Below are positions 227 to 15,979 of a stretch of DNA of 31,619 bases, one piece after another (the first letter of the stretch is position 1; each line of letters starts with the position of its first letter). The stretch covers positions 1 through 31,619 of the forward strand of contig JAFGON010000033.1 in the NCBI GenBank assembly GCA_016926475.1, read 5' to 3'. The position numbers and the translations under genes are program-made. This stretch comes from a candidate division WOR-3 bacterium. Its GTDB lineage: Bacteria; SDB-A. The notes beneath the pieces are model-generated. The model made no database searches. It saw nothing but the letters and a program-made list of their open reading frames with translations, and had not been told where the DNA came from.

Positions 227-1282
227 ATGGATAGAAATGTAAAAATAGCGGCTGATGATCTTATAAAATATAACCCCTCCGCAATAATTGCGGCGAGCCC
301 CGAGGGAAAGATAGTTTATGCAAATCTGGCTTTCATTAAACTAACAGGATACAGCAAAGATGAGATGTTAAAAAAAACAAGACTTACTGCTTTACTTCCT
401 GAAAAAAATATCAACTCTATCATCAAAACCAATACAAAAACCTTAGAAAGTAATATCCCTGCACAGTTAGTATCCCTTGTAAAAAAAGACGGAAAAACAG
501 AGGAGTGCATTGCTGAAATATCCTTTTCTGAGTTTAAAAAAAAGAAAACAACATTTTTTTTATTCAGCAAAATAAATGATGTCGACGAAATAATATTTAA
601 AAGTGTCGAAACACGCCGAAAACGCGGTGAAGGTTCTTACGAAGTTTTCAGAGAACTGGTCAGAAAAATCAACCCTCCTCTTCTGAAAATCGAGACGCAT
701 TTCAAGACCATGACTTTAGAAAGAAAATATTCTGAGCCGGAATTCAAGGATGCTTTTAACGCCGTAGACGAGGCTATAAAAACGGTCAACAGAAAAATAA
801 GATATCTTTTTTCAATCGGAAATTTCAGTTCAGACTGTTATGACATTCTGGATTTAGCTGAAATTGCTGACGAGTTGAGGGTATATTACAAAAATATCTA
901 TAAGAAAGTATTGATAAAGATATTTATAAAGAAGAAACCTGTAAAAATCAGAGGTGTAAAAGAGCTGATGATGACAGCTGTCAGAAATATCTGCGACAAT
1001 TCAATCGAAGCCATGAAAGCCGAAGGTGTAATTGAAATAACTATATCGTCAGGGAAAAAGAGTGTTTATTTAGGCATCAAAGATACAGGCGGCGGAATCA
1101 GGGAAGATGTTTTTGCAAATCTTTTCAATTCTATAACGACCAAAAAAAAAGGATTCGGTTTAGGACTCAAGGACAGTCTTGAAATAGCCCAATTATTTTC
1201 AGGGGAACTGTCTGCAGAAAACTTTCCGGGCGAAGGAGCGCTCTTTAACTTCAATTTTCCGTCAATCGAAAATGTTTCGTGA
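227..1282 (+). CDS. PAS domain protein with histidine-kinase-type ATPase but no phospho-acceptor histidine
   Basis: This is a 351-residue cytoplasmic signalling protein without signal peptide or membrane segments. Residues about 11-115 form a PAS sensor domain. Residues about 130-200 resemble the dimerisation helices of a histidine kinase. The C-terminus is a GHKL/HATPase domain with N box NICDNSIEAM (254-263), G1 box DTGGG (286-290) and G2 box GFGLGL (309-314). In the dimerisation helix the expected HExxNP motif reads VRKINPP, so the phosphorylated histidine is Val. Autophosphorylation in cis is therefore unlikely. The gene stands 38 bp upstream of a sigma54 response regulator and two genes upstream of a protein that has the H box but no ATPase. 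It may phosphorylate that partner in trans or act as a non-kinase regulator. No clear Shine-Dalgarno precedes the ATG. Confidence 0.8.
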   Translation: MDRNVKIAADDLIKYNPSAIIAASPEGKIVYANLAFIKLTGYSKDEMLKKTRLTALLPEKNINSIIKTNTKTLESNIPAQLVSLVKKDGKTEECIAEISFSEFKKKKTTFFLFSKINDVDEIIFKSVETRRKRGEGSYEVFRELVRKINPPLLKIETHFKTMTLERKYSEPEFKDAFNAVDEAIKTVNRKIRYLFSIGNFSSDCYDILDLAEIADELRVYYKNIYKKVLIKIFIKKKPVKIRGVKELMMTAVRNICDNSIEAMKAEGVIEITISSGKKSVYLGIKDTGGGIREDVFANLFNSITTKKKGFGLGLKDSLEIAQLFSGELSAENFPGEGALFNFNFPSIENVS

Positions 1283-1320: not shown

Positions 1321-2754
1321 ATGAGAAAAAGGCTTGATCTCGTATTGGCAGACGATGATATTAATTACGCCAAATATACATCAAAAAACATAGCCGAAAG
1401 GCTTAAAATATCCGTCAAGTTCGTTTGCAGGGTAGAAGATGCCCTGAAGCTCATAAAAGCTGAAAATCCGAGGCTGGCACTTATCGACATAGTGTTCGAA
1501 AACGATATGCGTTTTCCAACCGGGCTTCACATTGTAGAAAAAATTTCTTCTCTTGTCGACACAGACTTCGTCATTCTTACTGGCTCTGACTCTATCGAAC
1601 AGGTATTTAGAGCAGGTCAGCTCGCCGTTAAAAGTGTCGTCAGAAAATCCGCAGATATCACGTTTCTCTTGTCTGTCATCAGGGAACTCATTGATAAATC
1701 AATCGAAAGAGAAAAAAACCAGGGATCTTTCGCCCTTCCCAGATTTATAGGAATATCTGAAAAGATGTCGTGGATAAGAAAACAGATAGAAACAGCCGGA
1801 AAGAGCGACCTTCCTGTATTGATAACTGGCGAGACAGGCGTCGGTAAAGACGTAACGGCGAGGTTGATACACCTCAACGGCAGCAGAAAAGAAAAGCCAT
1901 TCATGGTCTTCGACGCGGGGTCTGTTGAGACGTCTCTTGTTTCAAAGGAACTTTTTGGTAACGTCAAAAACGCTTTTACAGGTGCTGAAACCGCAACTCC
2001 GGGTATTTTCAAAGAAGCGGACAAGGGGACTCTTTTTATTGACGAAATAGGCAATATGTCCCCGGAAATTCAGAAATATCTTCTCAGGGCCCTGAATAAA
2101 CCACAGAAAATTAGACCCGTGGGTTCATCCATCGAGATAGGAGTTGACGTGAGGGTAATTCTTGCGACGAACAAAGATATAAAAGGTCTTTGCAGGGATG
2201 GATGTTTTAGGAACGACCTCTACGCGAGGATTGACAATCCGCTGAGAATCAACATTCCCCCATTGAGGGAAAGGAGAGATGATGTTCCGGCATTGTTCGA
2301 ACATTTCTTGAGAAATAGAGCGGCATCCGGAATGAAAACGCCTAAGTTTTCAAAAGATGCGAAAGATTTTTTATACAGGATCTATGCCTGGCCGATGAAC
2401 GTGAGAGAAGTGGATCAGTTCGTTGGCGGAATGGGAGAAAAAACGGAAGACAATCGAGAATTTGATCTCGATACGGTTCTGGAAAATCTTCAGATATTGA
2501 AAAGTGAAAGAGTTTCAGAGGACAAAACCGAGGTGAACGAAGGAAAATCTTTTGAATTTTTCAGGGACATGACGTTAAAAATGGCGAAAGAAGAAATGGA
2601 GTTTCAATCCTTGAAACACCATCTGGAAAAAAACGGCTACAAAACAGGCCTTGCAGCCAAGAGTCTCGGCATATCGAGGACGCACCTTTTCAGATTGATG
2701 AAAAAGCACTCAAAAAAACTCGGTATTACAGAAGACAAAATGCAGGATTTCTGA
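1321..2754 (+). CDS. NtrC-family sigma54-dependent response regulator
   Basis: The 477-residue protein has the three classic parts. The receiver (about 4-125) has acidic residues 11-13, phospho-acceptor Asp56 in LALIDIVF, and the conserved Thr and Lys in VILTGS and VVRKS. The AAA+ domain (about 145-380) has Walker A GETGVGKD, Walker B GTLFIDEIG, the arginine-containing RNDLYARI and PLRERRDDV segments, and the sigma54-contacting loop as NAFTGA (normally GAFTGA). The end is a Fis-type helix-turn-helix (LAAKSLGISRTHLFRLMKK). It should oligomerise on phosphorylation, bind an upstream enhancer and remodel RNA polymerase-sigma54. It lies between two PAS proteins with incomplete histidine-kinase parts. 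Two strong sigma54 promoter matches occur at 5087-5102 and 10154-10169, upstream of secreted-protein genes, making them plausible targets. The G-to-N change in the loop is mild; the AFTGA core is intact. Confidence 0.93.
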   Translation: MRKRLDLVLADDDINYAKYTSKNIAERLKISVKFVCRVEDALKLIKAENPRLALIDIVFENDMRFPTGLHIVEKISSLVDTDFVILTGSDSIEQVFRAGQLAVKSVVRKSADITFLLSVIRELIDKSIEREKNQGSFALPRFIGISEKMSWIRKQIETAGKSDLPVLITGETGVGKDVTARLIHLNGSRKEKPFMVFDAGSVETSLVSKELFGNVKNAFTGAETATPGIFKEADKGTLFIDEIGNMSPEIQKYLLRALNKPQKIRPVGSSIEIGVDVRVILATNKDIKGLCRDGCFRNDLYARIDNPLRINIPPLRERRDDVPALFEHFLRNRAASGMKTPKFSKDAKDFLYRIYAWPMNVREVDQFVGGMGEKTEDNREFDLDTVLENLQILKSERVSEDKTEVNEGKSFEFFRDMTLKMAKEEMEFQSLKHHLEKNGYKTGLAAKSLGISRTHLFRLMKKHSKKLGITEDKMQDF

Positions 2755-2786: not shown

Positions 2787-3371
2787 TTGACAAAAAAAAC
2801 ATTTTTAGACTCAACTTCTACTGCTATAGTCCTCACTGATTCAGAGGGCAAAATCCTCCTGGTCAATCCGGCTTGTGAAAGGCTTTACGGAATAGAAAAA
2901 AACAGTATTGAAGGGCAAAATATTGAATTTTTTTTCTGTGACAGCTCTGAAGCTTTGGTTTCTGCAATATATAGCCAAATATCTTTAACAGGGGAATACT
3001 CGGATCTCTTGACTCACAGAAAAAAAGGAGGGGAAGAATTTTACGCGCTGATGCAGGGCTCGAGGGCTGAAATTTCAGAAAAAGCCTTTTCCGGAGTCGT
3101 TTTTTCAATCCATGATCTTACAGATTTACTGAAATACCGATTTGAAGTCACAACTGCCAGAGACGAAAAAATTGTTCTTCAGAGAAAAGAATGGCAGAAA
3201 ACCGCGAGAAAAATCATACATGACATAAAAACACCAATCGCCACCGTGGGTTCAGTACTCAATGCGATTCATTTCAAATTAGATAAAAAAGACAAATTTT
3301 TTTTTGAGGAATCGCTTTCGGATCTTATAGAAATCGAAAAAACGCTAAAATCGCTTTTATCCGGTGGATAA
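2787..3371 (+). CDS. PAS / H-box protein lacking the kinase ATPase domain
   Basis: This 194-residue protein (TTG start, 32 bp after the regulator gene, no good Shine-Dalgarno) has a PAS domain at about 8-112. A histidine-kinase dimerisation hairpin follows, with His145 in IIHDIKTP and a second helix up to residue 192. It then stops, so it has no N, G1 or G2 boxes. Within the cluster it complements the first gene, which has the ATPase but no histidine. Two readings are possible: a split histidine kinase in which the first protein phosphorylates His145 and this one passes phosphate to the regulator, or a full kinase gene cut short by a stop codon. The second is supported by the in-frame sequence after the stop. 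The PAS core is complete just after the TTG, so the start is reasonable though not proven. Confidence 0.72.
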   Translation: MTKKTFLDSTSTAIVLTDSEGKILLVNPACERLYGIEKNSIEGQNIEFFFCDSSEALVSAIYSQISLTGEYSDLLTHRKKGGEEFYALMQGSRAEISEKAFSGVVFSIHDLTDLLKYRFEVTTARDEKIVLQRKEWQKTARKIIHDIKTPIATVGSVLNAIHFKLDKKDKFFFEESLSDLIEIEKTLKSLLSGG

Positions 3372-3635: not shown

Positions 3636-5048
3636 TTAATAGACGAGTATTTTTCCGTGTTCGGAAAATATGGACGTCTCAAATGTGTAGATATAGACCC
3701 CTCCCTTTTCAAATTGATGCGTGATCCTGTGGTATCCCTGAAGATACCTGCCCGAGACTGGAGTGGAAACCAACCTCCCTGAAACGTCATAAATATTTAT
3801 CCGGACATCGTCTTCCCGTGGAAGTTCGAAATATATACTAATATTGTTGCCGTCTGCAGCGTTGACACTGATAAACGGATTATCAGGAGGATCTTGGGTT
3901 ATTACATTTTCCTCCACGGCGACACCATCTGAGTTCGTCCTTATCAAGTAAAGGTCTTCAACTCCGTAACCGAAGGACTTGGTATATCCAACGACTATGA
4001 AGCCTCCGTCTGAAAGCTGTTTTACCGAATACCCGAGATCGTCTGCTGAACCTCCGAAAGTCTTTGAGAAAACAGTTGATCCGGATGAATTTACCTTGAA
4101 CAGCCACACGTCCTTCCCGCCGTTGCCGTAAGATGCTGTATGCCCTGCAATTATATACCCTCCGTCTGAGGTCTTTTGAACTTCTTCGAAAAAATCATCC
4201 TGATAGTTGCCGTATGCATAGCCCCAGGTCATGTCTCCAGAACTGTTTGTTTTGAGGAGGACTGCGTCGAAATCGCTGTTTAAGTAGTAACCGGCCACGA
4301 TGTATCCTCCGTCTGATGTCTGTAAAACCGAGTTGGCTATATCGCTGTTGCTCCCCAACTCGATTTCTTTATCCCACGAAATACACAAAGAAGCGTCGAA
4401 TTTAACGAGCCACATTTCATAATCGCCGTAATTTTCATCGTAACCGCATGTGATGTATCCTCCGTCTGATGTCTGTTTGAGGTCGAATGCAGTATTGTTT
4501 TCCTGATCGCCGAATCTGTTGGAAAATATTGTGTCTCCGTTATTGTTAATTTTTACTATGTATAAATCCACATTTTGTGTCGCAATTTCAGACCATCCGG
4601 TTATGACATAATTTCCATCCGTGCACTGAACAATAGAATAACCTGAGTTCTCCATACCCGTAGACCAATACAGCTTATCCCATACCACATCACCGGAGCC
4701 GTTCGTTTTTACCACCCAGAAGTCCGAAACATTGCTTGAGAACACGCTGATTCCAATCATCATATAACCGCCGTCACTGGATTGAATCACCTGCTGAAAA
4801 TTATCATTTCTGTTGTTTTCGTCATACGCTTTTGACCAAATAAGGTTTCCCGAACTGTTTACTTTAATCAGGTAACCATCGTTTTCGGTTTTTCCTGCCG
4901 CGATAAAATTTCCGTCACTGCACTGAATAACTGAAAATCCACTTTCTGCTCCTCCTCCGCCAAACGTTCTTGTCCATCCGCAATAAAGAGCTGTTGCAGG
5001 TGCGAGAAAAGCTGAAAAGAGAATAAAAACTCTTTTTGCTTTTGACAT
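3636..5048 (-). CDS. Secreted seven-repeat beta-propeller-like protein with C-terminal sorting domain
   Basis: The 470-residue protein begins with a signal peptide (MSKAKRVFILFSAFLAPATA). Seven repeats of about 50 residues follow, each centred on a phrase like QTSDGGYIVAGYT and followed by D-x-W-L-V-K and G-x-x-x-W. Seven such units suggest a seven-bladed beta-propeller. The last 70 or so residues (FELPREDDVRINIYDVSGR ... GVYIYTF) are a FlgD-like / T9SS type A-like sorting domain, implying export to the cell surface. The start is set at 5048 rather than the longer frame opening at 5108. An AAAGGAGGAG Shine-Dalgarno precedes this ATG, and a sigma54 promoter occupies the start of the longer version. 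Some repeats are almost identical at DNA level (4299-4323 and 4455-4479), suggesting recent duplication. Ligand or enzymatic role is unknown. Confidence 0.87.
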   Translation of the reverse strand: MSKAKRVFILFSAFLAPATALYCGWTRTFGGGGAESGFSVIQCSDGNFIAAGKTENDGYLIKVNSSGNLIWSKAYDENNRNDNFQQVIQSSDGGYMMIGISVFSSNVSDFWVVKTNGSGDVVWDKLYWSTGMENSGYSIVQCTDGNYVITGWSEIATQNVDLYIVKINNNGDTIFSNRFGDQENNTAFDLKQTSDGGYITCGYDENYGDYEMWLVKFDASLCISWDKEIELGSNSDIANSVLQTSDGGYIVAGYYLNSDFDAVLLKTNSSGDMTWGYAYGNYQDDFFEEVQKTSDGGYIIAGHTASYGNGGKDVWLFKVNSSGSTVFSKTFGGSADDLGYSVKQLSDGGFIVVGYTKSFGYGVEDLYLIRTNSDGVAVEENVITQDPPDNPFISVNAADGNNISIYFELPREDDVRINIYDVSGRLVSTPVSGRYLQGYHRITHQFEKGGVYIYTFETSIFSEHGKILVY

Positions 5049-5086
5049 CGTCTCCTCCTTTGTTGGTTTGATTTCACTGTATCTAT

Positions 5087-5102
5087 AGCAACAACCTAGC
5101 CA
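5087..5102 (-). promoter_or_regulatory. sigma54 (-24/-12) promoter for the propeller-protein gene
   Basis: The minus strand reads TGGCTAGGTTGTTGCT. Against the sigma54 consensus TGGCAC-N5-TTGCW it keeps TGGC, TTGCT and the invariant GG-N10-GC spacing. The predicted transcript start is near 5076, giving a leader of about 27 nt that holds the Shine-Dalgarno. Transcription would need an enhancer-binding activator, and one is encoded at 1321-2754. Confidence 0.75.
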
Positions 5103-5160
5103 AATCATATGTCGCTTATTAGCGGGATTTGTAAATTAAGGTAAGGAAAATTGAATTTTT

Positions 5161-5178
5161 TGTAGCAAAAAAGTTACA
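5161..5178. promoter_or_regulatory. Putative enhancer dyad upstream of the sigma54 promoter
   Basis: TGTAGC-N6-GTTACA is an 18-bp inverted repeat with one mismatch from TGTAAC-N6-GTTACA. It lies about 85 to 102 bp upstream of the predicted start near 5076, where NtrC-type activators often bind. A sister dyad sits at the same distance from the second sigma54 promoter (10229-10246). Confidence 0.5.
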
Positions 5179-5242
5179 GAATTTAGACAAAAATGGAACA
5201 TTTTGTGGATTTTCTTGAGCAATCAGCACATAATCTTACTGT

Positions 5243-7747
5243 ATGTTTATTAGAGACAAAGAACTGACAAGAATCAAGAATATATCGAATAAATTTAGAA
5301 ATAAAGAGAAGTTTGGAGGAATAGTCTATCTATACGGCCCAGCCGGGATGGGAAAGGCTTTTCTATTGAACAAATTTTGTGATGATGAGAAGGACTTTTT
5401 CAACATCTGCTACATGCAAACCGACAATGTTTTGAAAAAGGATATGAATCCTTTCGTTTTTTTCTTCGAAAATTTCTTCGAACAGGACATTTTGAAGACA
5501 GAAAGAGAAAGAAAAGAAAGTTATGAAAGAATTTACACTGGTTTTTTGGATTCTCTATCGGAAAAAAATGATACAGTCATTATTAACGAGATAAAAAGAA
5601 TAAAATCAATTCTCGCTGGACTTATTGGGATTTACTATAATAATTCTCTGTTCGAATCTCTGACGCCTAAAGATAAGTATATTTCGATAAAAATTGCTGT
5701 AAAAGAATTTTTCAAAGCCCTGAGCCTTCTGAAGCCTGTGATAATTGTTCTGGAAAATGTCCAATGGCTTGATCAAGAATCCTTGAATTTTTTCCGTATA
5801 TTTTTCAGGAATATTGAAAGATTCCCGATTTTGATTATAGCGTCAGGCGAATCTGAACAGAGCAATGTTTTGAGTATCAATATTGATTCGAAAATAAAAA
5901 CCACGCCCATAGAGTTGAAGAAATTTTCTTTGATGACCGTAAAAAAAATGATCAAGGCGATTCTGGAAAAGTCTTGTGCCGAGAGAGTTTGCAGAGAGAT
6001 AGCCGAAAAAGCCGAATACAACCCTTTTCTGATTGAACAGATTTGTCTTTATTCAAAGGAACAGAGGTTGATTAAATTTTCCGGAAAATCTTATGATTTC
6101 AGCAATGGAGCAGGTTTTTCTTTTGTGAAATCAGAAGCAATGATTTTTTCGAGAATTGATTCCCTTGCAGAAAACGTAAAAAACTTTTTGCTTACGTCTT
6201 CCGCTTTGGGAAAAAGTTGCCCGTCTTACTTAATCTCAGGCATATCAGAATTGCTTCAAGGTACAAGGGGGGAAAAAACCATTTCCGAGAGTGTTGAAAA
6301 GGCTAAATCTTACAAAGGGGAATGTTTTGAGGTCAACGAAATAAGTCATATATTCAACGTAATGACTGGAATAAAAGATATTTTCATATCCAAATACGGT
6401 GAAAAAATAAAAGAAATACACAGATTGGCGATGAGAATATATAAGGAAAAGCCCAGTGAAATTTACACGGAAAATTTAGGTTACCTCTTTGAAAAGATCG
6501 ACAATAAAAGAAAAGCTTTCGAAAGCTATTCAAAATCGGGCGAATATGCAATGGAAAGATACTCGCTTGATACAGCCCTTTCTTTGTTTCGAAAAGCTTT
6601 ATCTATATCCGGGGAAGATGCGAATCTCGCAATTCCTGTTTACATATCAATCAGCAAAGTATATTTTGAAAAATCGGATTTCAGCAAATCACTCGAATAC
6701 TTAAACAAAGCTATGGAGCATGCAAAAAGAATCGGGTCCCGATCGGACCTTGCGGAAATTTATATATGCCTTGGGAAAATTTACCACAGAAAAGCCGAAT
6801 TCAAAACAGCAACTGAATTTTTCAAACGTGCACTTTTGTTGAAAAATAAATTGCTGGGAGTAAAGCATCCCGACTGCGCAAAACTCAGCATCTTAATCGG
6901 AAGAGTAGCATTTGACTGGGGCAGAAAATGCAAAAAAGCAGTTGATAGCTTTGAAAAAGCCCTTGCCGTTCAAATTGAAATACTTGGGAACAACCACTTA
7001 GACACATCGAATACATTCAACGACTTGGGAATAGTATACGGCTATAAAGGAGAGTATGTAAAAGCTCTGGAGTGCCTGGACAAAGCTCAATGCGTTGATA
7101 CAAAAAACGAAAGCATAAAGAAAATTACTGTTGCAAAAAATCTCAACAACAGGGCGGTAATATTTTATAACAATAAAAAATACAAAAAATCATTTGAAAA
7201 TGCATTGAAAGCCCTTGAGATATATAGAGAAATTCTTGGTGAAAAGCATTATCTCACGGCATACGCGTATCATAATACTGCTTCAATTCTTGATAATATC
7301 GATAAAGAAGACAAAAGAATTCTTGAATTTTATCGGATTTCAAACACAATTTTTAAAGAACTTTCAGGAGAAGAGCACATAGATGTTGCCGTTTCATACA
7401 ACAATATCGGTTCATTCCATCTGGGAAAAAAGGATTATTCCAAAGCCGCGAAATACTTCGATAAAGCTTACAAAATTTATCTAAATAGATTGGGAGAAAA
7501 AAACTACCTGACTGCACTTACCCTCAACCAGACAGGGAAATGCTTTTATTTCACAAAACATTATAACAAGGCGACAATATTTTTCAAAAAAGCACTTGCC
7601 GGATGCAAAGGCGACTCTGAAGATGCTGCTGCTCTCAGAACAGAAATATACTCTTATCTCAGCGAGGTCTATAAAAAAGAGGGATTTTTAAAAAAGGCAT
7701 CTTATTACAGGAGAAAAATTCGGATTGAAACAAGGAAGAAAAAATAA
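5243..7747 (+). CDS. AAA ATPase-like / TPR repeat protein with degenerate nucleotide-binding motifs
   Basis: This is an 834-residue cytoplasmic protein. The N-terminal part (about 1-400) is an AAA-type P-loop module like those of large cyclase and transcription-regulator proteins. The C-terminal half (about 420-830) consists of tandem TPR repeats. Later repeats have the 42-residue kinesin-light-chain spacing (LGxKHxxxAxxxNxxG). It is related to the AAA-TPR portions of the genes at 10309-14028 and 18547-22518 but has no cyclase domains. Walker A reads GPAGMGKA (32-39), with Ala where Ser or Thr should hold magnesium. The Walker B region reads VLENVQWLD (169-177) instead of the usual DD. ATP may therefore be bound without hydrolysis. 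There is no evident Shine-Dalgarno. It diverges from the secreted gene at 3636-5048. A scaffold or sensor role is inferred. Confidence 0.75.
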   Translation: MFIRDKELTRIKNISNKFRNKEKFGGIVYLYGPAGMGKAFLLNKFCDDEKDFFNICYMQTDNVLKKDMNPFVFFFENFFEQDILKTERERKESYERIYTGFLDSLSEKNDTVIINEIKRIKSILAGLIGIYYNNSLFESLTPKDKYISIKIAVKEFFKALSLLKPVIIVLENVQWLDQESLNFFRIFFRNIERFPILIIASGESEQSNVLSINIDSKIKTTPIELKKFSLMTVKKMIKAILEKSCAERVCREIAEKAEYNPFLIEQICLYSKEQRLIKFSGKSYDFSNGAGFSFVKSEAMIFSRIDSLAENVKNFLLTSSALGKSCPSYLISGISELLQGTRGEKTISESVEKAKSYKGECFEVNEISHIFNVMTGIKDIFISKYGEKIKEIHRLAMRIYKEKPSEIYTENLGYLFEKIDNKRKAFESYSKSGEYAMERYSLDTALSLFRKALSISGEDANLAIPVYISISKVYFEKSDFSKSLEYLNKAMEHAKRIGSRSDLAEIYICLGKIYHRKAEFKTATEFFKRALLLKNKLLGVKHPDCAKLSILIGRVAFDWGRKCKKAVDSFEKALAVQIEILGNNHLDTSNTFNDLGIVYGYKGEYVKALECLDKAQCVDTKNESIKKITVAKNLNNRAVIFYNNKKYKKSFENALKALEIYREILGEKHYLTAYAYHNTASILDNIDKEDKRILEFYRISNTIFKELSGEEHIDVAVSYNNIGSFHLGKKDYSKAAKYFDKAYKIYLNRLGEKNYLTALTLNQTGKCFYFTKHYNKATIFFKKALAGCKGDSEDAAALRTEIYSYLSEVYKKEGFLKKASYYRRKIRIETRKKK

Positions 7748-7754
7748 TAAAAAA

Positions 7755-7772
7755 TGGGGGATTAATCCCCCA
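7755..7772 (-). terminator. Strong intrinsic terminator of the 768-residue secreted-protein gene
   Basis: TGGGGGATTAATCCCCCA is an 18-bp perfect palindrome. On the minus strand it is followed by TTTTTTATTATTTTTT, so it ends the minus-strand gene whose stop codon is at 7815. The same hairpin also lies 8 bp after the plus-strand AAA/TPR gene, but on that strand the T run comes only later. Confidence 0.85.
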
Positions 7773-7782
7773 CGCATTCAAA

Positions 7783-7805
7783 AGGTGTGTCAGACCTCTT
7801 TTTTT
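7783..7805 (+). terminator. Weak intrinsic terminator for the AAA/TPR gene
   Basis: AGGT (7783-7786) pairs with ACCT (7794-7797) around a 7-nt loop, with seven T at 7799-7805. The 4-bp stem is short, but together with the GC palindrome just upstream the region probably ends plus-strand transcription. Confidence 0.4.
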
Positions 7806-7814
7806 GTCAAGTTG

Positions 7815-10121
7815 CTATTCGGCGATAATTATCTTGCCTGAATGTTTGTCTTTCCCGGCATCTAATATGAAAAAATATACTCCAGCGGGGATTTGATTTC
7901 CGTTTTCATCTTTTCCGCTCCATACGAGTTCATGGTATCCGGATTCGAGAATGCCGCATTCTTCCCTCGAAACAGACCTGCCAGTGATGTCGTAAACCAA
8001 AATTTTTACCTCAGAAGCGGTTGGAAGAGCAAGACGCAGAGGGAGGCGGCCGCTGATAATATTGGATGATGCGTAACGGACGGAAAAAGAAACTGGACTG
8101 ACCGGCGAGATTTCTTCGACAGCGTTTATAGAATCAATGCAAAGGGTCTGTTTTAAGAGTGTGTCGTTGGAGTGGTTCTGGTCGCCTGCAAGAAGAGTCG
8201 CCATCATAATGTAATATCTCTGTCCTGAGACTGCCGAGAAATAGCCGAAATTCAATGTGTCATAAAATCCGGAATAGACTAATTTAGTTGTCAGTGTTGT
8301 GTCCATGACCAACACATTATTTTGATTTCTCACCCTGCACCTTACGCCGAAGCTTTCCGGGAAATAGTTGCCGTTGTTTTTGACGACGCCGATAACGCTT
8401 CTGTTTGAAGGATATACGGTGTCCGGGGGTGAAAGAAAACTGTAACCCATCGCGTCTGTAAAATAAGAGATATTTTTAGGAACTGAAGCAAAAATCTGTC
8501 CGCCCCATGACCAGAGCATTATTGGGAACCATTGACCGTTAGGGGTGTTCCAGACGGTTGTGATGTCGCTATGCAAGTACAGACAAGATACAGGAGAACA
8601 GAAAGTATCTATTACGTGAGTTCCAACTCGCTCGAAATAAGAAGGATTGTCTTTAACCCAGTTGTCAATGGATGCAGAATCGTTCAAACATCTCAGGGAA
8701 AAAGCATACGTATTTGTAAATTCTTTGAAATAATACAAATGATAAAAATCGCTTGTGGTGTGATTTCCGTATTTAAATTCAGCGTCACAGGCAACTTTTG
8801 TATATTCTACATTGTTGTATTGATCTCCGTCAACAGTTTGATAATAAAAAGGGCGGTTTTGTGAAAGCCTGAAAAGAACCCTCAAGTTTCTGTCTCCAGA
8901 TGACCATTCATAAGTTATAGGTATAATCAGGCTTCTTTTGTTACGGTTGTGTGAAGCCGAGACATCAAAATCTTCAAGATCGCCTGAACCTGGATGATCA
9001 TAAACTGTGCTTGTCCAAGAACCCGAAGCGCCAGTTGAACTTTCATTTATGAGGAGTTTATCGCTGTTGTCATACTTCGATACAAAGTAAAAAATATTTC
9101 CATCGGGCGTGCCTGGCGCTGCCCCGGAAGCTCCTCTTGATTCAGAATTATAATTATCGATAAAATACGTGTAGACGGTGGTCCAGTTCACGCCCCCGTC
9201 GGTGGATCTTTTAATGACAATATAATAATCTTCCATCAATACACAGCACATTTGAGGAGTCAAGCCGCAGTGGTTGGCGACGAGGAAAGGATTTTTTTCC
9301 ATTACTCCCGAAGTTGCCGCTAAGCCTGAGTATGTGTATTGGTTCGGATCATTGAAATTTGTGAACTTTCTGAAATAAATATCATAATCGCTTGATGTGG
9401 TTCTTCTTGTGTAGAGATACAGCAAGTCCAGATTGTAGGGATCTATCTGAAGACCGGAAGAGAGTCTTGCGTAACTGTCCTTGTAAGAAAACCATCTGCT
9501 CCAAGTGTATCCGTAGTTAGTAGACCTCCAGATGAGCAGTGTGTCGTCCCTTGACCCTGCAACAAAAACATAGTTCTGATAGGAAGCAATATAACAACTA
9601 AAGACATCAAAAACACCGGTTGAAACCCTGCATGAATCCCACCCCCAGCCGTAAGAAAACGGTGAATATTGAATATTTTCCGTTGTCGTGGCGAAGGTCT
9701 GATCCTCCATGTTAAAAATATTGTCATCAGGATTCTGGGTGGCGTATCTGTTTCTTTCGGTATAATCTACGAATACGCTTGCTTCCTCATAACAGCTGGC
9801 GAGCTCTGAATAATTTATTTCGTCGGGGTCTTCATTAAAAAGCTTTTGCAGTTCGACAAGCCTTGAACGATATCCCACGTATTTTCCTTCGCCTGCAGAA
9901 TATTCGTCCTCAGGGAGAAGAGGTATTAAATTTTCTATGCGCGAATTCAGATCTGAAGATACAGAAATTCTTTGCCTAGATGAAAACGAAGACCAGGACT
10001 TCATCATCTCTTCTTTTTGAGGAGTCCAGCCTGTTTCTAGACGGAAATTTTCATCCGTTACTTCCGCTGAAACAACGGCCGTGAGAAATACAAACACAGC
10101 AACCATCAGCAACCCTTTCAT
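7815..10121 (-). CDS. Large secreted Asp-box / sialidase-like repeat protein with C-terminal sorting domain
   Basis: The 768-residue protein starts with a signal peptide (MKGLLMVAVFVFLTAVVSA) behind a strong AAAGGAGGA Shine-Dalgarno. The middle contains BNR/Asp-box-like phrases (RSTNYGYTWSRW, RSTDGGVNW), which usually mark beta-propeller blades. Around residues 560-660 lies a CARDB-like beta-sandwich (VIGVVKNNG ... SVRCRVRNQ-type pattern). The last 90 residues (LPTASEVKILVYDITGR ... PAGVYFFIL) are a FlgD-like / T9SS type A-like domain for surface attachment or secretion. It is transcribed alone, with a sigma54 promoter 33 bp upstream and a strong terminator downstream. Function is unknown; the Asp boxes alone do not show sialidase activity, and no catalytic residues could be placed. 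Confidence 0.83.
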   Translation of the reverse strand: MKGLLMVAVFVFLTAVVSAEVTDENFRLETGWTPQKEEMMKSWSSFSSRQRISVSSDLNSRIENLIPLLPEDEYSAGEGKYVGYRSRLVELQKLFNEDPDEINYSELASCYEEASVFVDYTERNRYATQNPDDNIFNMEDQTFATTTENIQYSPFSYGWGWDSCRVSTGVFDVFSCYIASYQNYVFVAGSRDDTLLIWRSTNYGYTWSRWFSYKDSYARLSSGLQIDPYNLDLLYLYTRRTTSSDYDIYFRKFTNFNDPNQYTYSGLAATSGVMEKNPFLVANHCGLTPQMCCVLMEDYYIVIKRSTDGGVNWTTVYTYFIDNYNSESRGASGAAPGTPDGNIFYFVSKYDNSDKLLINESSTGASGSWTSTVYDHPGSGDLEDFDVSASHNRNKRSLIIPITYEWSSGDRNLRVLFRLSQNRPFYYQTVDGDQYNNVEYTKVACDAEFKYGNHTTSDFYHLYYFKEFTNTYAFSLRCLNDSASIDNWVKDNPSYFERVGTHVIDTFCSPVSCLYLHSDITTVWNTPNGQWFPIMLWSWGGQIFASVPKNISYFTDAMGYSFLSPPDTVYPSNRSVIGVVKNNGNYFPESFGVRCRVRNQNNVLVMDTTLTTKLVYSGFYDTLNFGYFSAVSGQRYYIMMATLLAGDQNHSNDTLLKQTLCIDSINAVEEISPVSPVSFSVRYASSNIISGRLPLRLALPTASEVKILVYDITGRSVSREECGILESGYHELVWSGKDENGNQIPAGVYFFILDAGKDKHSGKIIIAE

Positions 10122-10153
10122 TTCTTCCTCCTTTTTTACTACACAGACTGATA

Positions 10154-10169
10154 AGCAATACTTGTGCCT
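10154..10169 (-). promoter_or_regulatory. sigma54 (-24/-12) promoter for the 768-residue secreted-protein gene
   Basis: The minus strand reads AGGCACAAGTATTGCT, matching sigma54 consensus TGGCAC-N5-TTGCW at all but the first base, with the required GG-N10-GC spacing. The predicted start near 10143 gives a leader of about 21 nt containing the Shine-Dalgarno. Confidence 0.8.
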
Positions 10170-10228
10170 TTAATGTATGTGGCGTTATGGAAGGACTTGT
10201 GAATTGAAAGAAAAAAACATGAAATCGC

Positions 10229-10246
10229 TGTAACTTTAATGTAACA
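10229..10246. promoter_or_regulatory. Putative enhancer dyad upstream of the second sigma54 promoter
   Basis: TGTAACTTTAATGTAACA is one mismatch from a TGTAAC-N6-GTTACA dyad. It lies about 86 to 103 bp upstream of the predicted start near 10143. It matches the minus-strand copy at 5161-5178 in 14 of 18 positions. It can also be read as a TGTAAC direct repeat with 11-bp spacing. Confidence 0.5.
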
Positions 10247-10308
10247 AGATTCTTGAATTTTTGGATAAGAGGCGCAGGTGCTTACAGAAAAGTGACAAAG
10301 TAAAAAAC

Positions 10309-13300
10309 TTAGATGTCTATCCCTTCCCATGTTATATTGTTTAAAAGCTTTTCAAGATTGTTTAGTCTGTCGTAGTCTTCGAGTTCTTCGTATATATTCC
10401 ATGCGTGTTCAAGGCATTTCAGGGTTTTAAATTTGTTTTTTTTGTCTATTTTAAACTCATTGCTTCCGTAGCTCTCCAGAGAGGAAGCCAGGGATTTTTT
10501 GTCTCCGGTTTTCTTGAAGTATGACATGCTCTTTAAATAATTTTCTCGAGCTTTTTTGAAATCGTTCTGATTCGCGTGTACGTCTCCAATGAATTTAAAA
10601 GACCTGCCTGTTGCCTCAAAATCTTCAGTTTCAATCCTGTTTTTCAGGGCTCTTTCGTAGTAGTTCATCGCTTGGGTCGTGTAACCCCTTACCCTTTCTA
10701 TGTCGCCTAATTTGTCTAAAATATAAGCTTCCAGTTTTAGGTTTTTAAGTTCGCGGGAAAGTTTTTGAGCTTGTTCTAGAAATTTCTCGGCTTTGTTGAA
10801 GTCCCTGGCTTTCATGAAAACCCCGCCTATGTTGTGGAGGTTGACTACCATCAAATTGTAGGAGCCGATTTCTTTTGCTGTATTGAGTGCCTGTATACTG
10901 TATTCAAGGCCTTTTCCGACTTTTCCTTGCCTGAAACAGACTTTGGCTAAATCGTTTAATACAGACGCCATATCGACAAAATTCTTGTTTTCTTCGAAAA
11001 CTGACCTGGAGTTTTCAAGAGACTGCAACGATTTCTCGAGTTCACCTCTGTTTAAAAATATTTTCCCCCTGCAAGCGTGAATATGTCCAATATAGTCCTT
11101 CTCTCCGTTAATAGCTTTCTCTTCAAGATTTTCAAGAGTTTTCAGCGCGGCGTCATAATTTCTCATTTCAACTAATAAAAAAGCTTTCTGCTTTAGTATC
11201 TCCGACAGCAACTCTTTTTGTCCGTTTTCTTCCGAGACGTCTTTAGCCATTTCAAGGGTCTGCAAGGATTTGGCGGGTTCTCCTCTTTTGAAAAGAGAAA
11301 TTGCTCTGTACAGCAAAAGCTTGACGTATGAGGACTTATCTTCCAAAGATATAAAATAGATTTTCGCTCTATTGTAAATTTCTTCATTGAGGGGAAAATC
11401 TTTTATGTCTTTTTCATAAAACATAATATTTAATGCTATTTGGTTTTTGTTTTCGGGATCATCTTCGATTTCATAAGCTTTAAACAATAAATCGCAGGCC
11501 TCATGCACCCTATAGTTATAATAAGACCACTGGGCTGCGTCGGTGAAGTATTTTACAGCCCAAGACTTTTCATCTCCCGCCAAATAATGCTGAGCTATCT
11601 CTGAAAACCTTGTTTTGTCTTTGCCGTAGAGCATCTCCAAAACTTTTGCGGATTCCCTGTGAAGCTGGGTTAGCTTTTCATTTGGAATATTTTGCAGGAT
11701 ACAGACTCTTGAATTCTCGTTTCTGAAATAAACGTGATTTGTCGAATTGAAAACCCATAATTTTTTTTTCATGCCTTCTTCAAGAAGAGATTCGTAAGAG
11801 CCGTTGAGCTTTGTGTCCTCGGCTTGAGAAGGGTTGGAAACAATCAACGTTTTTTTGCTGAAATGGTTTCCGAGTACGGACGCGAATTGGATCGCTTCTT
11901 GAAAATCTTTGTCCCACAATTCAGCCCTTTTGGATAAAACAGCCCTGAGGTCGCCTTCAAGAGTTGAATAATGATCTCTGTAATTTTCTTTGGATTCCTG
12001 TATTAAAAGACAGATTTGTTCGGATATAAGCGGATTTCCTGACGAAATGGCGGTTATTTTGTTTAAATCGTCTATTGTAATGTCTTCGCCAAGAAACGAA
12101 GTGATGAATTCCTCCTGCGCTTGAAGGGAAGTTTTTGTCAATTCAATTTCCATAAATGGAACGTCTTTATCCAAAACGAGCTGGGGTTTCGCCGGTTTAT
12201 TCTGTGCGGTGGCAATTATGAGCAGTTGGCGGTTTGATATTTCTCTCGTCAGTATTTGTATCGCTTTTACCGAGTCTTCATCTAGGTATTGTATGTCTTC
12301 GAAGACAAGTATCAAGGGATTCTGAAAAGCCAGGGATAAAACGAAATTCTTAATCGCGAATAGCGTGTTTTCAAACCTGCTGGTTTGATCGAGACTGTCG
12401 TATATTGAATTTTCCCATTCAAGGCCCAACAGCGCGGCTATAATCGTAGGCGTCCGAATCAGCTCTTCGTTGAGAGCGATATTGCTTTCTGAAGTGTTTG
12501 CCTGGCATTTTTTCAAAAAATTTTCGTATTTTTTTATGAATACGTCTTTTTTATCGTGAACGGTCTCTTCTTTGAAAAAAAATTCGTTGAAAAAATCTTT
12601 GAAAGGTTTAAATGATTCTCTGAAAGCCGTGTTGGGGTGGAGAAAACAGGTCATGCCTTTTAATCTTTTTGCCAGTTCACCGGCGAAAAATGATTTTCCG
12701 CTTCCCTGTTCTCCGTAAATGTATATGATCCCGGGAAACCTTTTCTCGAGAAAAGGTTTTGAAAAATGAAGGCATTTTTCGCCTAAGACTATTCTTTCTT
12801 TGAAAAGGCTTTTGACCGGTTCTACGATTTTTTTAGGCAGGACTTTCAGGATTTTTATCTCTACGCTGGAGCCTCTTTCAATTATTGAAGAATGAGGCTG
12901 AATTTTGTGAAGGGTTTTCAACTCTTCACCGATATTTTCTGTAACCAAAATTCCCTTTTCGGCGGTCTGGGAAAGCAGAAAATCGGTTGTATTCAGGGAA
13001 TTTCCCACTTCGACGCAGTCATAATAAGAAGGTGATTCAACGGGACCTATAAATGACATTCCCCGGGTGATAATCGAACGCGTGGAAATCTTAAATTCTT
13101 CTTCAGAAAATTTTATCTGTTTCAAAATATCTTCCAATTTGCTTTCATCATCCTTGTGCAGGCACATATAGACATGAGGGTTTGCCCTGTAATGTATCAA
13201 CCCGAGATAAAGGATTGGATCAACAGAAATATTTTCCGTGATAAAGCTTAAAAAATCGTGAAATTCATCTTCCGTTTGAAACACTCTTTCGTCGAAGGAC

Positions 13301-14028
13301 AGGACTATTGTCGTCAAATCGGCGAGTTCCTTTTTATTCGAACATCTAAAAGTCTTTTGGAAAATGTTTGTTTCTATCTCGTCAATAGGTTCGGTTTTGG
13401 TCGTCGAACTGTGTTCAAAATTTAATTTTGTCGACTCTGTAAAAAACAGGTTGTTTTGCTTTGTAAAAGAAGATTTTATGTTTTCAGAAACGATCAGGTT
13501 CTCCGTTTTTTCATCTATTGTAATCCTGTTTAACGGACCTGAACTTATGGAAAGATAAGCTTTTGTAAAAGCTTCTCCCATGAAATAAAACTGTTTTTCC
13601 CTCTTACCGTATATTCCCCAGTTTGTATTCCCAGTTCCTATGCCAATTTTACAGAAAACAAAAAACTCTCCATAAGAAGTTTTAATCTTTGAATTCGCCT
13701 TCATTTTTTTGAGTATTTCTATTCCTGCCAAAATCGAAGTTTCGGCCTTGTTTTCACCTTTTTCTTCAAGGAAAACGGCAAAAAGCATGTCGCCGAAAAA
13801 TTTGTATACAAACCCGCCATGCGAATATATTGTTTGAATTATTGGGGACAGCAGAAGGTTCAAAGTGATTTTAAATTCGTCGTATCCTTCGGCTGATTTA
13901 TCTTTCGTTTTTTCCAAAATTGAGTTTAAGGATGAAAAATGAACTATTACAACGGTTGATTGTATGGAACCATGAGGTTGGGAAACAAGATATTTTTCGA
14001 GAATAAATGAAGGTACGTTTTTATCCAT
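10309..14028 (-). CDS. Cyclase-like / AAA ATPase / TPR giant protein with degenerate cyclase domains
   Basis: The 1239-residue protein has the layout of soluble adenylyl cyclases: two class III cyclase-like domains (about 20-190 and 230-400), a P-loop NTPase (about 410-800) and a long TPR tail (about 820-1220). The first cyclase domain has His30 where the first metal-binding Asp should be, though Asp80 (KFFGDM) remains. The second has lost nearly all catalytic signatures. The NTPase looks intact, with Walker A GEQGSGKS (439-446) and Walker B LILVFEDIQYLD. The protein is therefore probably not a cyclase itself. It may sense a nucleotide, or act as a regulatory partner of its paralogue at 18547-22518. 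It is preceded by its own sigma70-like promoter (14083-14110) and has no clear Shine-Dalgarno. It lies 187 bp upstream of the sigma54-controlled secreted gene on the same strand. Confidence 0.8.
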   Translation of the reverse strand: MDKNVPSFILEKYLVSQPHGSIQSTVVIVHFSSLNSILEKTKDKSAEGYDEFKITLNLLLSPIIQTIYSHGGFVYKFFGDMLFAVFLEEKGENKAETSILAGIEILKKMKANSKIKTSYGEFFVFCKIGIGTGNTNWGIYGKREKQFYFMGEAFTKAYLSISSGPLNRITIDEKTENLIVSENIKSSFTKQNNLFFTESTKLNFEHSSTTKTEPIDEIETNIFQKTFRCSNKKELADLTTIVLSFDERVFQTEDEFHDFLSFITENISVDPILYLGLIHYRANPHVYMCLHKDDESKLEDILKQIKFSEEEFKISTRSIITRGMSFIGPVESPSYYDCVEVGNSLNTTDFLLSQTAEKGILVTENIGEELKTLHKIQPHSSIIERGSSVEIKILKVLPKKIVEPVKSLFKERIVLGEKCLHFSKPFLEKRFPGIIYIYGEQGSGKSFFAGELAKRLKGMTCFLHPNTAFRESFKPFKDFFNEFFFKEETVHDKKDVFIKKYENFLKKCQANTSESNIALNEELIRTPTIIAALLGLEWENSIYDSLDQTSRFENTLFAIKNFVLSLAFQNPLILVFEDIQYLDEDSVKAIQILTREISNRQLLIIATAQNKPAKPQLVLDKDVPFMEIELTKTSLQAQEEFITSFLGEDITIDDLNKITAISSGNPLISEQICLLIQESKENYRDHYSTLEGDLRAVLSKRAELWDKDFQEAIQFASVLGNHFSKKTLIVSNPSQAEDTKLNGSYESLLEEGMKKKLWVFNSTNHVYFRNENSRVCILQNIPNEKLTQLHRESAKVLEMLYGKDKTRFSEIAQHYLAGDEKSWAVKYFTDAAQWSYYNYRVHEACDLLFKAYEIEDDPENKNQIALNIMFYEKDIKDFPLNEEIYNRAKIYFISLEDKSSYVKLLLYRAISLFKRGEPAKSLQTLEMAKDVSEENGQKELLSEILKQKAFLLVEMRNYDAALKTLENLEEKAINGEKDYIGHIHACRGKIFLNRGELEKSLQSLENSRSVFEENKNFVDMASVLNDLAKVCFRQGKVGKGLEYSIQALNTAKEIGSYNLMVVNLHNIGGVFMKARDFNKAEKFLEQAQKLSRELKNLKLEAYILDKLGDIERVRGYTTQAMNYYERALKNRIETEDFEATGRSFKFIGDVHANQNDFKKARENYLKSMSYFKKTGDKKSLASSLESYGSNEFKIDKKNKFKTLKCLEHAWNIYEELEDYDRLNNLEKLLNNITWEGIDI

Positions 14029-14863: not shown

Positions 14864-15979
14864 ATGAGATTTTTTACCGTCTTTCTCATTGTGCTTTGGG
14901 CGGGAACTCTTTTTTCCCAGGAGTTTATCGTGGACCACAATTTTGTTCACCCTGAAAGCATACCTCAGAATTGGATAGATTCGGTTAAGGTTAAATGCAA
15001 GTGGCATTACGCGCACACATCTCACGGAGGTCAGCTGACGATTGGTCTCAATGACTACGAAACTCAAAACCCATTTTTCGGCGTGTCCATAGGTTCGTGC
15101 AATTTACCTAACACAGCTGGATCTTTCTGCATACACGACGGGCAAGTAAGCCAGACATACATAACGCCGGAGCTATACTGGCAGTCATCAACGGGGATGA
15201 ATCTGACGAGAGCTGTATTGAACGCGAACTCTTCGCTTAACTTTTCCGCCTGGGCCTGGTGTTGTCAAGTCGACGGATACAATCAAACTCAAATTCAGGA
15301 GTACCTCGATTCGATAAGCTTACTTGAATCAGAATTTCCGGACGTCACTTTCATCTACATGACCGGTAACGCGCAGGCCGAAGGTTCGAGCGGATACAAC
15401 AGACACCAGAGAAACAATCAGATAAGACAGTATTGCATTGACAACGATAAAGTCCTGTTCGATTTTGCCGACCTGGACTGTTGGTGGTTCAACGACACCA
15501 CCGGTCATTGGGAGCAAAACACTTACTTCTACAACGCCGAAAGTATTCCCGTAGAACATCAAGCTTTCAACGGAAACTACGGCGGTCATACTACATATCT
15601 GAGTTGCCAGCAGAAAGCCTATGCGGTTTGGTTTATGTTTGCCGTTTTGAGCGGCTGGGACCCCAGCAGTCCTGTTGAGGAGCACTTTGGAGATAACCCA
15701 AGCATAAGCCAATGCCGTGTCTTCCCAAATCCTTTTTCTGCCGAAGCTCAAATCTGTTTTGCTTTGAAAGAGAGCGAATTCGTTGAAATACTCATCTACA
15801 ACCTTCTTGGGCAGAAGGTAAAATCGTTGGTTTCCGGAAGACTTGAAAGCGGCGAGCACAGATTTGTCTGGAATGGAAAAACAGAGGGTTTGGAATTTGT
15901 CGAAAGCGGTGTTTATTTTTACAGAATAAATATAGGAGGAATAGAACAATCTAAGGGCGAGATAATCTACATAAAATAA
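14864..15979 (+). CDS. Secreted SGNH-hydrolase-like protein with C-terminal sorting domain
   Basis: The 371-residue protein has a signal peptide (MRFFTVFLIVLWAGTLFS) and a good GGGAGG Shine-Dalgarno. The mature region (about 20-270) has HTSHGGQ (51-57), TFIYMTGNAQ (about 162-171) and FADLD (201-205). The order of an early Ser-Gly motif and a later G-N motif is reminiscent of SGNH/GDSL hydrolases. A late GGHTTY segment could supply the histidine, but the catalytic set is not certain. There are several cysteines, as expected for an exported protein. The last 90 residues (VFPNPFSAEAQICF ... IYNLLGQKV ... SGVYFYRI) form the FlgD-like / T9SS type A-like sorting domain. Unlike the two minus-strand secreted genes it has no sigma54 box. 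The substrate is unknown. Confidence 0.8.
   Translation: MRFFTVFLIVLWAGTLFSQEFIVDHNFVHPESIPQNWIDSVKVKCKWHYAHTSHGGQLTIGLNDYETQNPFFGVSIGSCNLPNTAGSFCIHDGQVSQTYITPELYWQSSTGMNLTRAVLNANSSLNFSAWAWCCQVDGYNQTQIQEYLDSISLLESEFPDVTFIYMTGNAQAEGSSGYNRHQRNNQIRQYCIDNDKVLFDFADLDCWWFNDTTGHWEQNTYFYNAESIPVEHQAFNGNYGGHTTYLSCQQKAYAVWFMFAVLSGWDPSSPVEEHFGDNPSISQCRVFPNPFSAEAQICFALKESEFVEILIYNLLGQKVKSLVSGRLESGEHRFVWNGKTEGLEFVESGVYFYRINIGGIEQSKGEIIYIK

Follow-up and report, generated by a model that had tools for sequence, protein, structure and literature searches.

Two minus-strand genes for exported proteins in a candidate division WOR-3 bacterium (assembly GCA_016926475.1, contig JAFGON010000033.1) raise the question of which sigma factor directs their transcription and which regulator would switch them on. 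The window analyzed here is the whole stretch of 31,619 nucleotides, corresponding to contig C33 of a 2.15-Mb genome in 106 contigs. The initial annotation had placed a sigma54-type (-24/-12) promoter before each gene and had proposed a regulon of surface proteins under this sigma factor. Both elements are very probably sigma54 promoters, and it is probable that they form one small local regulon. This reading is preferred because a dyad was found only at these two promoters and a gene for an enhancer-binding protein (EBP) lies 0.9 kb from the first of the two genes. The promoter elements, leaders, and genes are the following:

5087..5102 (reads 5102-5087), minus strand: -24/-12 element 1, TGGCTAGGTTGTTGCT, 14.0 bits by an approximate matrix
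10154..10169 (reads 10169-10154), minus strand: -24/-12 element 2, AGGCACAAGTATTGCT, 14.4 bits by the same approximate matrix
5049..5076, minus strand: predicted leader 1 with Shine-Dalgarno (SD) sequence AAAGGAGGAG, read from the sequence
10122..10143, minus strand: predicted leader 2 with SD sequence AAAAGGAGG, read from the sequence
3636..5048, minus strand: gene 1, 470-aa exported protein with signal peptide, delta-60/DUF5122 beta-propeller repeats, and a C-terminal tail like those of the type IX secretion system (T9SS), below the family cut-off
7815..10121, minus strand: gene 2, 768-aa exported protein with signal peptide, Asp-box-like motifs, and a FlgD_ig/T9SS-like tail (PF13860, above cut-off)

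Reading of the minus strand confirmed both elements at the places given by the initial annotation. Both have the GG-N10-GC geometry with the TGGCAC-N5-TTGCW-like context that serves as criterion for sigma54 promoters, and both contain the eight core letters GGC-N7-TTGCT. Start codons preceded by SD sequences were found 32-38 nt downstream of each element, at 5048 for gene 1 (AAAGGAGGAGACG ATG) and at 10121 for gene 2 (AAAAGGAGGAAGAA ATG). Transcripts are predicted to start at about 5076 and 10143, which would give short leaders, about 27 and 21 nt long and each with a strong SD sequence, as previously described. Mechanical calling of open reading frames (ORFs) begins gene 1 at an in-frame ATG at 5108, upstream of the -24 box. 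This codon has no evident ribosome site, a signal peptide is obtained when the gene is read from 5048, and 5108 is not likely to be the start. With gene 1 annotated from 5108, its promoter may go unnoticed as part of the coding sequence.

The matrix used for scoring is approximate, being our own and modelled on the published consensus. Elements 1 and 2 have the two highest scores on both strands of the window and are the only high-scoring sites located just upstream of a gene start. Sites of at least 14 bits occur at a background rate of 1.25e-5 per nt (320 kb of the same genome). Over the 60 nt before each of about 20 gene starts, this rate predicts 0.015 sites; 2 were observed (Poisson P about 1e-4). 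The bare core GGCN7TTGCT shows no genome-wide excess, with 45 matches against 47 for the reversed control; most of these matches fall inside genes, as coding noise. The raw count was therefore dropped as support for the promoters.

Similarity of the two promoters extends far upstream of the -24 boxes and includes the dyad:

5108..5183, minus strand: 76-nt upstream block 1, like 10176-10251, including dyad 1
10176..10251, minus strand: 76-nt upstream block 2, like 5108-5183, including dyad 2
5161..5178, minus strand: dyad 1, TGTAACTTTTTTGCTACA, predicted EBP enhancer, 58 nt upstream of the -24 box, centre near -94
10229..10246, minus strand: dyad 2, TGTTACATTAAAGTTACA, predicted EBP enhancer, 59 nt upstream of the -24 box, centre near -94

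The blocks are 62% identical over 76 nt without gaps, in a register equal to within one base, and in 6000 random pairings of upstream regions from this genome this likeness was never reached. Within the aligned promoters, GGC and TTGCT are identical at 8/8 positions and the 7-nt spacer between them at 1/7, a pattern expected if it is the -24/-12 letters that have been retained. A further block, TTYACAARTCC...CACATA, is also alike in both promoters. The 18-bp dyad, TGTNRC-N6-GYNACA, is predicted from its position to lie where an EBP would bind. A common dyad of at least this quality and in the same register, with spacer and place left free, was found in 0.8% of random pairs (P = 0.008). In the whole genome TGTNRCN6GYNACA has exactly two matches, dyads 1 and 2; the pattern was derived from these dyads, and the count shows uniqueness rather than independent discovery. 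The relaxed pattern TGTNNCN6GNNACA has 19 matches, of which 15 were read; the 13 of these that lie outside the window promoters are all in long ORFs, and none has a strong -24/-12 site. No second copy of the dyad was found at either promoter, matches with up to three mismatches being no commoner than by chance.

The genome encodes a single intact RpoN (507 aa, RpoN box ARRTVAKYR), a presence that the initial annotation had named as a check. The regulatory genes next to gene 1 are as follows:

1321..2754, plus strand: NtrC-type response-regulator EBP with receiver, sigma54-activating AAA+ and Fis-like helix-turn-helix domains and the L1 loop NAFTGA; proposed activator of both promoters
227..1282, plus strand: PAS histidine-kinase-like protein with HATPase domain; H-box ELVRKINPPL, with Arg at the place of the phospho-His
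2787..3371, plus strand: PAS and H-box protein; H-box IIHDIKTPI, His present, no ATPase domain; possible phosphoacceptor half of a split kinase

The EBP is rather likely to be the activator, an assignment based on its adjacency and on the privacy of the dyad. Its AAA+ domain belongs to PF00158, with Walker A and B regions that look intact. Its best solved relatives belong to the NtrC family (e.g., 4l4u and 1ny5), and it resembles EBPs of the NtrC/ZraR/NorR type in its domains but differs from them in the NAFTGA loop and in the lack of an adjoining orthodox kinase. In the protein 227-1282, the Arg in place of the phospho-His was seen by alignment with FixL. No hidden ATPase domain was found after 2787-3371 in the three forward frames up to 3640. 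Split kinases are a known concept (PMC3591291, PMC7656254); from their sequences, these two proteins look like complementary halves of one, and they may work together.

In the proposed mechanism, RNA polymerase with sigma54 would wait in a closed complex on GGC-N7-TTGCT until an EBP of NtrC type, attached to the TGTNRC-N6-GYNACA dyad near -94, loops over and opens the promoter by ATP hydrolysis. The product of 1321-2754 would most likely be this EBP, phosphorylated in response to what the PAS kinase proteins on either side of it sense. The result would be the coordinated and tightly switched making of two exported proteins, of beta-propeller type, leaving the cell by a T9SS-like route.

Besides the origin of the dyad pattern, several observations weigh against this reading. 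Five other full-length EBP domains were found in the genome. In the L1 loop of 1321-2754, Asn replaces the first Gly of GAFTGA, which is a real doubt: the orthologue in the relative G003 has GAFTGA and the four other EBPs read have GAFTGA or GAYTGA. GAFTGA mutants mostly fail (PMC7175178), and the tolerated variants listed for Desulfovibrio vulgaris all retain the first Gly (PMC4641369). Of the three relatives compared (G001, G002, and G003), G001 and G003 have homologues of gene 2 without a -24/-12 site. An orthologue of the EBP was not found in G001 and G002; in G003 it is 50% identical over its length, yet exact dyads are absent from G003 as well as from G002. Both exact dyads of G001 fall within long ORFs, and neither is accompanied by a strong -24/-12 site. 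Support for the promoters by descent was dropped, as no conservation was found in the three relatives.

The altered loop, together with the mutant data, is what speaks for the alternative that the promoters depend on sigma54 with one of the five other EBPs as activator, the NAFTGA protein having lost sigma54 activation or doing something else. This is unlikely: only the two promoters near 1321-2754 have the dyad, the other likely sigma54 sites of the genome are without it, and the nucleotide-binding motifs of the protein seem whole. The confidence in sigma54 dependence is that of the local regulon with the adjacent activator and of this alternative taken together, lowered for error in the matrix and the null model.

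Two further alternatives dispense with sigma54. The common block could contain a core promoter of the sigma70 type (TTTACA/TTCACA and CATATG/CATACA), the dyad being the operator for an ordinary repressor or activator; GG-N10-GC would then be accidental or a relic of promoter duplication. This agrees with the likeness of TTYACAARTCC...CACATA in both promoters and with the motif count not exceeding chance, but is quite improbable given the invariant -24/-12 letters around a drifted spacer, the poor distance of 18-20 nt, as read by eye, between the sigma70-like hexamers, and a dyad distance that suits an enhancer. It is very improbable that the two motifs match by chance and that the genes are transcribed in some other way. 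The same genomic count favors it, but the start-proximal pair within one window, the common upstream block, and the dyad stand against it. A local regulon of two sigma54 promoters is retained as the most probable reading.

Other start-proximal -24/-12 sites were found before pilA (C35), a prepilin gene (C23), a lipoprotein gene (C27; lipobox read by eye), and a NifX-like gene beside an EBP gene (C12; family read by eye). Additionally, such a site (C74, 25932-25970) precedes the gene for a secreted DUF6600 protein with a very high content of Trp and Tyr. Nearly all genes behind these sites encode exported proteins. The window dyad is absent from them, and the promoter pair therefore probably has its own activator. 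At the prepilin gene (C23:32341-32386), tandem near-perfect upstream dyads, GTGAAAATATTTTCAC and TTGAAAATATTTTCAC, unlike the window dyad, are possibly the enhancer of another EBP. The C12 site, TGGCACTAAGCTTGCG (C12:14193-14251), lies directly 3' of the EBP gene and before the NifX-like gene, with almost no leader. Sigma54 in this organism seems to serve the cell exterior, including pilins, a lipoprotein, and T9SS-like substrates.

The initially proposed view, in which surface proteins with sorting domains broadly form a sigma54 regulon, draws on the two cases in the window. In total, 35 FlgD_ig matches were found in the genome. Among those genes with a readable 5' end, a set without the genes at contig ends, no -24/-12 site is placed to drive any gene except gene 2. 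The initial annotation had itself named a lack of motif enrichment upstream of similar genes as evidence against its view, and no enrichment was found. Since the other FlgD_ig genes with a readable 5' end have no placed site, and with the dyad unique to the pair, a general regulon was rejected as extremely improbable. The genome-wide survey covered FlgD_ig as the one sorting-tail family, and a few more sorting-tail genes under sigma54 are possible. Among sorting-tail proteins, sigma54 control appears confined to genes 1 and 2. The earlier interpretation as a whole is partly supported: two real-looking promoters, rpoN, genes for exported proteins, and a translocon stand, and the general sorting-domain regulon does not.

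As previously described, the products of both genes are exported proteins that end in a sorting-type tail. The tail of gene 1 scores 20.3 bits with PF18962 (cut-off 27) and 19 with TIGR04183 (cut-off 23), and that of gene 2 scores 38.2 bits with PF13860 (cut-off 27) and 16.9 with TIGR04183. The tails are mostly below family cut-offs, and T9SS-type export is supported by an SprA-type translocon, for which PF14349 (SprA_N) is above cut-off in this genome (G000) and in the three relatives. No phage families were found for gene 1. The description of genes 1 and 2 as the only ones on the minus strand with FlgD/T9SS-like tails holds, but it is selective: a third sorting-tail gene of the window (14864-15979, plus strand) has no such promoter. 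Three large AAA_16-TPR proteins are also encoded in the window contig (5243-7747, 10309-14028, and 18547-22518); 18547-22518 has a guanylate-cyclase domain (PF00211), and the N-terminus of 10309-14028 looks similar. The first of them is located beside gene 1:

5243..7747, plus strand: AAA_16-TPR protein, divergent from gene 1; a similar gene overlaps the EBP orthologue in G003

This overlap in G003 (C8, 181-4514) suggests a conserved module of EBP and AAA-TPR genes. Only tentatively, the locus may be a module in which a split kinase acts on the NAFTGA-loop EBP and this on a private sigma54 promoter pair for T9SS-type surface proteins, with AAA-TPR proteins also taking part.

Sigma54 control of exported proteins in general is known elsewhere, with experimental precedents. 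Sigma54 has been proposed generally to control the bacterial exterior (PMC3162934), and such control is not unusual; the likely sites found here, before pilins and other exported proteins, agree with this. The sites at pilA and the prepilin gene correspond to this general pattern, whereas the window pair differs from them by its common enhancer dyad. In Flavobacterium psychrophilum, the sigma54 promoter of the remFG-sprCDBF operon was tested by reporter fusion and mutagenesis (PMC9723704). As there, a -24/-12 promoter here precedes genes for T9SS-secreted surface proteins (the operon of the SprB adhesin there; T9SS-like, as judged from sequence, here). However, remFG-sprCDBF is a gliding operon of the Bacteroidota and also has a promoter for a different type of sigma factor, and neither a paired private dyad nor an adjacent split-kinase EBP locus was seen described for it (PMC9723704). 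In Aquincola tertiaricarbonis, the PEP-CTERM gene pepA is RpoN-dependent, with PrsK-PrsR (PMC9850573). The EBP 1321-2754 scores 225 bits with the PrsR family (TIGR02915), below the 503-bit cut-off, and is not a member of the PrsK-PrsR system. Sorting in the pepA system is of the PEP-CTERM type and that of the window genes T9SS-like; PEP-CTERM features were neither seen nor sought here. By analogy, the present case may work like the remFG-sprCDBF and pepA systems.

With this locus, an uncultured lineage gains a concrete set of promoters, predicted enhancers, and a candidate activator for exported proteins. It also shows that, where -24/-12 motifs are no more frequent than chance predicts, a sigma54 regulon can be recognized from a private common dyad rather than from the motif by itself.
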